From Poriferisphaera corsica (GTDB taxonomy: Bacteria > Planctomycetota > Phycisphaerae > Phycisphaerales > Phycisphaeraceae): a DNA stretch of 64,000 bases. The stretch spans positions 1,720,175 to 1,784,174 of the forward strand of contig NZ_CP036425.1 in assembly GCF_007747445.1 (NCBI RefSeq). The letters run 5' to 3'. The notes below the pieces were generated by a model. The model had not been told where the DNA came from. It did not search any database and worked only from the letters and a program-made list of their open reading frames with translations. Both the position numbers and the translations under genes were made by a program. The first letter of the stretch is position 1; every line of letters begins with the position of its first letter. Of this stretch, positions 34,474 to 36,613 are shown in pieces.

Positions 34474-34748
34474 GGGCGGTCAAAAAGGCCCGTGCGGGGC
34501 TGCGATGCAGGTGCACCACAGAGTGTATACATCGGTAGAGTTGAAGTCAGAAGTAGGTTTTTGTCAATTTTTGGGCGATTTAAGCCGTTTATTTGCGTGA
34601 AACGGAGCGAAATGGGGGTAAGTGGCGGTTTATCTCAGGGGCAGCATGTTTGCGCACATTTATGTGTAAAGTCATTTTGATCTTGATAGTCAAGAAAAAA
34701 TAATGTTTAATAGAAATTGTTACTGTTTGTAGATTTATCACGGGGCAA

Positions 34749-35402
34749 ATGATGTTACATCCAAAACCACTTCTGTCTGTATTAATCGCTTTTATCGTCA
34801 TGTTTGTATGTTCTACCGATGCAATGGCGATGTACAATCCCAAGCTTGCGCGGTTTATGCAAAGAGATATTTCAACCCAAAATGTTGCGATGGGTGAGTA
34901 TAAAGATGGCTTGAATTTGTATCAATATGTGAAATCAAATCCGTTGAGATATGTTGACCCGTCAGGTCTCACACTAACTAGTGTTCATCAGCCAAAGAGC
35001 ATTGCACTATTGTGTGAAATGGGTATGGATGGAGTTCTTGCGGCAGCGGGGGTTGCAACTGTGACTGTAACAACACTCACGGCGATTGATTGGGCTAAGA
35101 AAATGAATAAAGAGTTTGGCCCTACATGTCGCCCATCTTTGTTAGATGCTTTTAATAAAGCAATCGATGCATTGAAACCAAAAGCAAGGAGATGTAAACC
35201 GAATATGTCATGTGCAGAGCTTACTGTATTAATTGCTTTACGTCGTGCAATGATAACTTTACGCCTTCAACGTGAAAATAGGTGTTGGCGGGGTGGGGAT
35301 TATGGACATAGAAAGCAAACTGCAGATCATCTTACTGGTCTTCGTAATTGTGTTAGAGAGTTTTATGCGAATAATTGTGCGTGTGTAATGTGTCCGAAAT
35401 AA
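34749..35402 (+). CDS. Secreted short RHS-core protein with C-terminal toxin-like domain
   Basis: Protein of 217 residues. Residues 1-27 are a Sec signal peptide (LLSVLIAFIVMFVCSTDAMA). Residues 29-74 are the terminal core motif of RHS/YD proteins: YNPKLARFMQRD, then DGLNLYQYVKSNPLRYVDPSGL spread over 53-74. In classical RHS proteins this motif ends a repeat cage of over 1,000 residues and marks the start of a variable toxin domain; here the cage is missing. After it come a hydrophobic stretch (95-113) and a Cys-rich helical domain with CWRGGDYGH (179-187) and a following Cys201. From memory this resembles the C-terminal domain of some polymorphic toxins (CxGGDxGH type, Ntox16-like), of unproven activity. 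The next gene may encode immunity. Composition is more AT-rich than its neighbours, suggesting transfer. Confidence 0.75.
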   Translation: MMLHPKPLLSVLIAFIVMFVCSTDAMAMYNPKLARFMQRDISTQNVAMGEYKDGLNLYQYVKSNPLRYVDPSGLTLTSVHQPKSIALLCEMGMDGVLAAAGVATVTVTTLTAIDWAKKMNKEFGPTCRPSLLDAFNKAIDALKPKARRCKPNMSCAELTVLIALRRAMITLRLQRENRCWRGGDYGHRKQTADHLTGLRNCVREFYANNCACVMCPK

Positions 35403-35439
35403 CGTGAATGTATTATCTAGGATATAATAAAGGTTGTGA

Positions 35440-35940
35440 ATGAATAGGTATTTACAGGTTCGGGATAGTTTTGATTCGGTTTTCCCCGGTATTAAGCTTG
35501 CGGCAGAAGTCATAAGTCAACCGTATAGTAGAAGTGAAAGAGAATTTGAACAGCATCTGATGCACCATTCTAGAGACGATATTGCACGAGATTTCTGGCG
35601 ACAAAATGGTGATAATGTTACATTGCTATTACCAGAGGCATTTCGGTATTTCTTGCCGTCAATAATTAAATATTCAATTAATGAATTGTTGCTTGTGTAC
35701 GGTGAGGATAGTTTGTGTGAAGGAGTTACCGAATGTGTAGTTATGAATAATATTTTGCTAGCCTCAGGTGCAAATTTGACTGGGAATGATTGGTATCTGT
35801 TGCGGATAAAGCAAATGCCAAATAGTGAAAGATTATGTGTGATAGACTATATTAATTTGTTGAGTACTCATAGTGACATATTATTGGAATTTTATATAGA
35901 TCGTACACACATACAGAAGTGTATAGATGTGTGGCGATAA
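35440..35940 (+). CDS. Unknown protein, putative immunity partner
   Basis: Protein of 166 residues beginning 37 bases after the RHS-core gene, with AAAGG 6 bases before its ATG. No signal peptide or membrane segment, so cytoplasmic. It is acidic and helical; the phrase LLPEAFRYFLPSIIKYSI resembles a motif seen in small DUF6714-like proteins, a recollection I could not test. I infer an immunity role from its place directly after a toxin-like gene, its small size and its similar AT-rich composition. It could also be an unrelated hypothetical gene. Confidence 0.55.
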   Translation: MNRYLQVRDSFDSVFPGIKLAAEVISQPYSRSEREFEQHLMHHSRDDIARDFWRQNGDNVTLLLPEAFRYFLPSIIKYSINELLLVYGEDSLCEGVTECVVMNNILLASGANLTGNDWYLLRIKQMPNSERLCVIDYINLLSTHSDILLEFYIDRTHIQKCIDVWR

Positions 35941-36154
35941 GTGATATGTGTTGAGATAAATTTCGTGAACTCCATATTGTGCTTACTACACATGTTGACT
36001 TATTTGCCGGTGTTTATCGCAAGCATATGCATATATTGATGTTTGAATTATTGAGGAATTGCAGGATGGAATGTGTGCACACCTGATTAACCGAAGAATC
36101 AAAATTGCACATTAGCAGAGTAGCTTAGCCTTATGAATTAAGGCACTTTTCCGT

Positions 36155-36613
36155 TTACCAGAAGAGGCCGGGGTCGTCGCGGACGGGGGGGGAGTTGAGG
36201 CGGTAACGTTTTTCGGAGATTGGGTCGTAGAGTTCGGTGAGGACGACAGGGAAACTTCGTTCGGGCTTGAGGAATGTGCCGGTGGGGAAGGGTTGCTCGA
36301 ATTCATTGATGCAGGTTTCGAGGCTGTAGAGGTTGTTGGTGCCGATCTTGATTGTGTCGATGCGCTTGACGTACTGCTGGTTGATCCAGAGTTGGATGTC
36401 GGTATATTCCCATGGCGTGCGGTTGATGAGGCGGAGGTTATGGCCTTCACGCTGTGCGACGATGTCGGGGTTTGGGGCGTATTGGGCGTCTGCGGGGTAA
36501 GGGATCGCGGCGAGTTCTTGGCGCTGCTGAGGTGTGGTGGCCATGGAGGCGCAGCCGACGGAGAAGAAGGCGGTGAGGATCAGTAGGAGCAGGATGGGTA
36601 AAGTGGTCTTCAT
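36155..36613 (-). CDS. Lipoprotein, function unknown
   Basis: Exported lipoprotein of 152 residues. The signal peptide MKTTLPILLLLILTAFFSVGC ends in a lipobox with Cys21. The start at 36613 places this signal first; a longer frame from 36649 would bury it. The mature part contains a beta-rich segment (RLINRTPWEYTDIQLWINQQYVKRI) but no domain I recognise. It stands alone, transcribed divergently from the dihydrouridine synthase gene. Confidence 0.7.
   Translation of the reverse strand: MKTTLPILLLLILTAFFSVGCASMATTPQQRQELAAIPYPADAQYAPNPDIVAQREGHNLRLINRTPWEYTDIQLWINQQYVKRIDTIKIGTNNLYSLETCINEFEQPFPTGTFLKPERSFPVVLTELYDPISEKRYRLNSPPVRDDPGLFW

Follow-up and report, generated by a model that had tools for sequence, protein, structure and literature searches.

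Two adjacent genes in the genome of the marine planctomycete Poriferisphaera corsica probably encode a polymorphic toxin that is exported by Sec and lacks the RHS cage, together with its immunity protein. The pair lies at positions 34,749 to 35,940 of a 64,000-nucleotide stretch of contig NZ_CP036425.1 (positions 1,720,175 to 1,784,174), referred to here as the window; the host genome is a single contig of 4.29 Mb. RHS toxins of known structure hold the toxin inside a hollow cage. In the first protein of the pair and in its relatives, a constant carrier, consisting of a signal-like peptide and the final ~45 RHS core residues, is, as far as comparison of the sequences can tell, joined directly to exchangeable tails, and this short front end shared by proteins with differing tails suggests a stripped-down weapon format. 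The second protein of the pair is classed here, from profile matches, as a divergent member of the DUF6714 family (PF20461).

Domain organization of the 217-residue protein

The open reading frame (ORF) at 34749–35402 encodes 217 residues, the parts of which are listed in Table 1. The signal peptide, called from hydropathy and an AxA rule together with conservation and not with SignalP, is similar in a paralogue from the same genome (L002) and in two proteins of the same genus (L007 and L021). It leads directly into the RHS core, of which the C-terminal half is present: residues 28–74 match positions 37–76 of the 76-position TIGR03696 profile (E = 3e-10; 40.4 bits, cut-off 32.5), and the predicted mature protein, beginning with MYNP, starts at position 37 of this model. 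No RHS/YD repeats are found ahead of the core piece, where the signal is the only element, and the protein therefore has no cocoon. The autoprotease dyad (D40 and D70) and the DPxG motif, present as DPSGL, precede the tail.

The tail contains a modest hydrophobic stretch (residues 95–113, mean Kyte-Doolittle value 1.77) and an Ntox16 domain, with residues 143–202 matching positions 23–83 of 85 in PF15523 (E = 3.4e-7; 30.8 bits, cut-off 25). The sequence CWRGGDYGH (residues 179–187) provides the [DNE]xxH motif of Ntox16 as D184-Y-G-H187, followed by R188; the description of this domain in a 2012 survey gives the motif as R plus [DNE]xxH and leaves unstated which R is meant (PMC3482391). The domain is expected to be a helical enzyme that uses these R and DxxH residues. 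Nine of the 10 cysteines of the protein lie past the signal. A lipobox, of consensus [LVI][ASTVI][GAS]C, is absent from the 217-residue protein, in which C21 is preceded by F-V and the predicted cut falls between AMA and MY.

These results agree with an initial annotation made from the DNA letters, which had described a Sec signal, a terminal RHS core without its cage, a hydrophobic stretch, a Cys-rich region around CWRGGDYGH, and a tail guessed to be of the Ntox16 type. The signal is supported to the extent that residues 1–27 resemble a signal peptide, and the hydrophobic stretch is real yet modest.

A DUF6714-type gene downstream of Ntox16

The second ORF of the pair begins 37 bases past the toxin ORF on the same strand, and neither a signal nor a strongly hydrophobic segment was seen in its 166-residue product, as anticipated when it was first annotated as a small soluble protein. 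Its assignment comes from other loci that carry Ntox16. PF15523 is present in 6 of 298 genomes of the class (Phycisphaerae), that of the window included, and a DUF6714-type gene lies directly downstream in all six loci, as it does behind a seventh, divergent Ntox16-like gene (L156). DUF6714 exceeds its Pfam cut-off in four of the five partners outside the window (four were scanned), and the fifth, L143, was recognized with a profile of the other four. A profile of four other Ntox16 partners also finds the 166-residue protein (E = 3e-5 among 3,659 ORFs, a set that includes overlapping loci), which ranks after DUF6714-type proteins only. Its alignment with the DUF6714 partners by hhalign covers the stretch with AFRYFLP, in the AF-FLP region; the protein occupies the same position after Ntox16 as its counterparts and is too divergent for a direct Pfam match. 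The linked second gene that the initial annotation called for is therefore present and, for Ntox16, belongs to one family; its role as an immunity gene is indicated by this association. In four of the five other loci of the class, Ntox16 is carried by an RHS-core protein without the signal-plus-core start.

Elsewhere in the genome, a 357-residue ORF with two DUF6714 stretches (G000:C1:1396083-1397111; L147/L155) lies directly behind a truB-like gene. No toxin was found upstream of this ORF, and its product is possibly an orphan double immunity protein.

A family with a constant start and differing tails

The paralogue L002 has the same start as the 217-residue protein (54% identity over residues 2–79) and an unrelated tail. 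When the order was searched with the full-length 217-residue protein, 13 of 301 genomes gave a match. In the class, a profile built from 13 N-termini reached E ≤ 1e-8 in 209 of 397 genomes; many of the matches listed cover the core only and others include the signal part. Of 392 genomes sampled from the phylum, 18 matched this profile at E ≤ 1e-12. Among the loci retrieved, 64 distinct proteins have a signal-like segment that ends immediately ahead of the core; setting aside L098, whose signal is doubtful, leaves 63. These 63 members are distributed over 32 genomes, of which 31 are of the window's class and one, that of L126, belongs to another part of the phylum, and they are 125–392 residues long, apart from one 98-residue copy at a contig edge; because they were chosen for having a signal-like start, they constitute a catalogue and not a measure of prevalence. 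Recounts were made on 56 of the 63, with L224, genes at contig edges and tails shorter than 60 residues left out. These members bear only in part on the earlier suggestion of a planctomycete-specific design, the profile search having covered this one phylum.

The tails differ where the start is kept. Across 68 pairs of same-genome paralogues, mean DNA identity is 0.76 in the signal and 0.69 in the core and falls to 0.54 in the tail (computed on the first 300 tail bases), the level of shuffled tails (0.53); upstream DNA is 0.62 identical in the 63 pairs with enough sequence, ranging from 0.53 to 0.94 by genome. After the removal of two false rows, the 56 tails form 41 BLAST clusters. For 17 of the 56, a matching tail exists in a set of 99 RHS-core proteins without the signal start, a count that becomes 16 of 56 once the 15 ambiguous short proteins in that set are left out. 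The variation of tails behind a kept N-terminus that the initial annotation called for is therefore present, and, to the extent that the tails are toxins, it fits the constant trafficking part with exchangeable C-terminal toxin domains by which the 2012 survey describes polymorphic toxins (PMC3482391).

A Pfam scan of 60 of the 64 members returned 17 families at E ≤ 0.01, some of them under their own cut-offs. The tail families include protein-glutamine gamma-glutamyltransferase (TGL) in 2 of the 60, Aspzincin_M35, Ntox44 and zinc-dependent phospholipase C (Zn_dep_PLPC) in one each, and also Ntox16; of ten tails submitted one by one, two exceeded a cut-off. Enzyme-like motifs seen by eye in tails are HExxH (L061, L062 and L093), GHG (L059, L064 and L077) and GxSxG (L063, L085 and L106).

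In base composition (n = 62), the signal and core of the family have a G+C content close to that of the rest of the locus (0.565 vs. 0.578, p = 0.10). The tails are lower, at 0.505 (p = 2e-10 against the rest of the locus, 60 members), and so are the partners, at 0.503. Tails and partners of low G+C content beside a host-like carrier are as expected for cassettes joined to a resident carrier.

In several genomes, genes with signal, core and tail alternate with partner genes, as in the runs at L062 (G366:C218), L073 (G339:C99), L093 (G492:C12) and L064 (G020:C118). The partners in these runs are often lipoprotein-like, and successive copies are ~1.3–3.2 kb apart at L062, L093 and L064. The tail of the same-genus member L060 (L060:5221-6114, G052) comprises about ten GLPENIDPGFGRQSP-type repeats and has no enzyme-like domain.

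Partner genes across the family

A same-strand ORF of at least 60 residues is found within 300 bp downstream in 61 of the 61 members with room for one (L098 included), and stricter criteria still give 55 of 56. Such an ORF also follows 265 of 353 other genes, so that the downstream ORF alone is weak evidence. By predicted localization, 20 of 55 partners of short proteins are lipoproteins, compared with 11 of 81 partners of RHS proteins without the signal start and 10 of 265 partners of other genes. When signal-bearing partners are counted as well, the numbers become 38 of 55, 47 of 81 and 91 of 265. The partners of short proteins exceed those of other genes on both counts (p = 2e-10 for lipoproteins and p = 3e-6 for lipoproteins plus signal peptides), with ORF calling and localization that are crude but follow the same rules in each group, and with spurious ORFs that may lower the rate among the other genes.

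We also considered a higher frequency of export among the partners of short proteins than among those of RHS proteins without the signal start. Only the lipoprotein part of this proposal holds (Fisher p = 0.003); for lipoprotein and signal-peptide partners together, p is 0.21. An ambiguous group of short genes has 2 of 13 lipoprotein partners and 8 of 13 lipoprotein or signal-bearing ones (p = 0.20 and 0.74 against the short proteins). These values, together with the p of 0.21, indicate that partners in the envelope go with RHS-type genes generally in this set and not with the short ones in particular. The lipoprotein partners of about a third of the tails would point to envelope targets.

A Pfam scan of 56 of the 61 partners identified WG and WD40 repeats in two each and SUKH, ankyrin, HEAT and TPR in one each; SUKH, ankyrin and HEAT appear as immunity types in the 2012 survey (PMC3482391). 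Neighboring genes are homologous in 10 of 54 pairs with homologous tails, against 172 of 11,325 of all pairs (odds ratio 15.6).

Conservation of the core stub

The first Asp, the second Asp and the Gly of DxxG are each present in 56 of 56 members, whereas the next best full columns reach 54 of 56; in RHS proteins without the signal start, the corresponding counts are 83, 84 and 84 of 84. Retrieval with a core profile favors conserved columns, although other heavily weighted columns vary nonetheless. In RhsA of Pseudomonas protegens, the equivalent residues D1324 and D1346 correspond to the autoprotease dyad known from Tc toxins, and cleavage stops when either is substituted with Asn (PMC8765631); the Photorhabdus Rhs1 report places the catalytic Asp within the second DPLGL motif (PMC8636562). 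The two aspartates are 22–23 residues apart in 16 of 54 members and 30–64 apart in 38 of 54 (2 of the 56 are unmeasured), compared with a range of 22–58 and a median of 23 in RHS proteins without the signal start. The stub is not decaying in the family, and it may self-cleave without a cage.

Genomic context

The pair is flanked by a minus-strand pgi-like gene and, on the other side, by a small lipoprotein-like gene, beyond which lies a tRNA-dihydrouridine synthase-like gene, as judged from translations read by eye. DNA of the same-genus relative Planctomycetota bacterium ZRK32 (CP066225.1, G052) aligns to window positions 34522–34576 and 36154–36541 with 76 bp between the two segments, and three other relatives have no BLASTN match within window positions 34577–36153. 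In all four relatives, the two outer genes have matches that are 671–1077 bp apart, against 2330 bp in the window. The pair is missing from the syntenic site in each of the four, and because the flanks of the relatives close up without it, the ~1.5 kb that holds the pair is extra in the window genome. Nothing convincing was seen in the way of repeats at the ends of the insertion, and scans for promoters and terminators gave results no better than shuffles. The G+C content is 0.39 in the signal and core, 0.42 in the tail and 0.36 in the partner gene, and 0.51 and 0.54 in the flanking genes.

Two RHS proteins of ~2,300 residues with different tails are encoded elsewhere in the genome (G000:C1:1805637-1812599, L056, and 2607669-2614559, L057); no long RHS gene closer than L056 was found, and it lies ~50 kb downstream of the pair. 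The genome also contains two similar RHS-core remnants without a signal (G000:C1:3029064-3029207, L003, and 149786-149890, L006), of which L003 is interrupted soon past the core, and four secretin matches.

Table 1. Features of the candidate toxin-immunity locus, in window coordinates
Feature	Position	Strand	Description
Signal peptide	34749..34829	+	Residues 1–27; predicted cut between ...STDAMA and MYNP; hydropathy and AxA heuristic
RHS core, C-terminal half	34830..34970	+	Residues 28–74; D40, D70, DPSGL; TIGR03696 match
Variable tail	34971..35402	+	Hydrophobic residues 95–113; Ntox16 residues 143–202 (D184xxH187); stop; PF15523 match
Putative immunity gene, divergent DUF6714	35440..35940	+	166 residues; ATG start; no export signal; profile match
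Extra segment of ~1.5 kb holding the pair	34577..36153		Missing from the same site in same-genus ZRK32

Discussion

In the mechanism that we propose, Sec would export the 217-residue protein and the signal would be cut behind an A.A motif, in front of MYNP, such that the mature protein would start at the core stub. The stub may have been retained as a site of aspartyl autoproteolysis or release (D40, D70 and DPSGL), and it would also serve as a constant junction for swapping cassettes of tail and immunity gene. Once outside the cell, the Ntox16 domain would enter neighboring cells and act in the cytosol, a location favored because its DUF6714 partner has no export signal; the DUF6714 protein would protect siblings in that compartment. 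Tails with lipoprotein partners would act in the envelope. A bolder version, which we advance only tentatively, is that the last ~45 core residues alone might be a working, cage-independent autoprotease or release tag, adopted by Phycisphaerae as a universal carrier for the secretion of dozens of toxins and distinct from the Rhs carriers of the type VI secretion system (T6SS) and from Tc and contact-dependent inhibition (CDI) carriers.

Several observations weigh against the toxin-immunity interpretation. For the pair itself, the carrier in the window is AT-rich too, so that the compositional contrast of the family is absent here; AlphaFold2 models made without an alignment are unusable for both window proteins (mean predicted local distance difference test scores of 37.4 and 36.4). 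The hhalign score of the 166-residue protein against the DUF6714 partners is moderate (E = 2e-4, probability 45%), and the protein has no direct Pfam match up to E = 10 and stays below the PF20461 cut-off. DUF6714 is, moreover, not restricted to Ntox16, since other copies have no Ntox16 upstream. Within the family, at least 40 of 60 members have no Pfam family at all; the other member from the same genome, L054, has a 54-residue tail and no convincing partner; and the repeat tail of L060 is not toxin-like and lacks a partner under the stricter rule. Homologous tails on different carriers have BLAST-homologous neighbors in 1 of 20 cases, and that case involves an ambiguous short gene. Nonetheless, the interpretation given in the initial annotation is supported by what is read from the genomes, having survived the checks on tail variation, on the linked gene and on a broken RHS gene.

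The short genes could instead be a store of spare tips for recombination into full-length RHS genes; the signal would then serve only to keep their product out of the cytosol, and the product would not itself be a weapon. Such a store would be in keeping with the 17 of 56 tails that match tails of RHS proteins without the signal start, with the arrays of short genes and the two long RHS genes of this genome, and with an orphan rhs gene that, in the Salmonella example given in PMC7043789, lies beside a full-length one. We consider it unlikely in view of the conservation between paralogues of the signal and, in some genomes, of upstream DNA, the invariance of the catalytic aspartates, and the distance of the pair from the nearest long RHS gene found. 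It is less probable still that the family consists of secreted non-toxins, such as hydrolases or surface proteins, that share an RHS-derived leader for export and folding. Ntox16 and Ntox44 tails occur, a few partners have immunity-type folds, and the downstream ORFs, nearly universal under either rule, encode lipoproteins far more often than those behind other genes, whereas the repeats of L060, the many members without a Pfam family and the 2 of 10 singly scanned tails above a cut-off would suit non-toxins.

Very improbable, in our estimate, is action in trans, in which the stub would dock as the inner plug in a full-length RHS cage made elsewhere and be delivered along with it. In RhsA, the cocoon is closed off by the end region of the core, where the protease also resides (PMC8765631), and two long RHS proteins are available in the genome; yet long RHS proteins bring their own core and tail, and the spacings of 30–64 between the aspartates in most members would not suit a plug well, although they are shared by some RHS proteins without the signal start. 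Finally, that the toxin ORF is the leftover 3′ end of a broken full-length RHS gene, or arose as a reading frame by chance, can be dismissed despite the signal-less remnants L003 and L006, because proteins of the same genus, and of other genomes, share the signal-plus-core start and the site is empty in all four relatives; the pairing with DUF6714 is conserved as well.

The candidate toxin and its relatives resemble RHS/YD-repeat toxins (T6SS RhsA, Rhs1 and the C components of Tc toxins) in the two core-end aspartates and the DPxGL motif before a variable toxin, in the downstream partner gene, and in tails some of which are shared with RHS proteins of the class. Unlike these toxins, they are short, at 125–392 residues against ~2,300 for the long RHS proteins of the same genome, and have no RHS repeats, PAAR or T6SS domain, a signal peptide alone standing in front. 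Orphan rhs-CT/rhsI modules of Salmonella and other bacteria likewise combine a short gene of partial core and toxin with an immunity gene, but the proteins described here have a signal peptide of their own, common to paralogues and genera, and no long RHS gene adjacent; with its signal and at ~50 kb from such a gene, the window pair does not fit an orphan rhs tip. The SitA/SitI toxins of myxobacteria are also exported polymorphic toxins with a cognate immunity gene, but SitA proteins are, in the portion of the report that describes them, lipoproteins passed by outer-membrane exchange (PMC5562445), whereas the 217-residue protein has no lipobox and carries an RHS core stub. No paper describing the signal-plus-core-stub architecture was among the matches listed in a search of mostly open literature that did not extend to the architecture tables of the 2012 survey. 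Similarly, DUF6714 or PF20461 is named in no paper of the searched, mostly open-access literature, nor was its partnership with Ntox16 found there.

With a core end carried by a signal peptide, the question of whether the protease end works without a cage becomes open to direct test. DUF6714 can be named as the likely immunity family for Ntox16, for which the immunity column is empty in the table of the 2012 survey (PMC3482391). The tails of the family as a whole may be candidate toxins, with those that lack a Pfam match forming a possible reservoir of new toxin domains, and the catalogue of the family lists candidate pairs of toxin and immunity gene from a class that has received little study.
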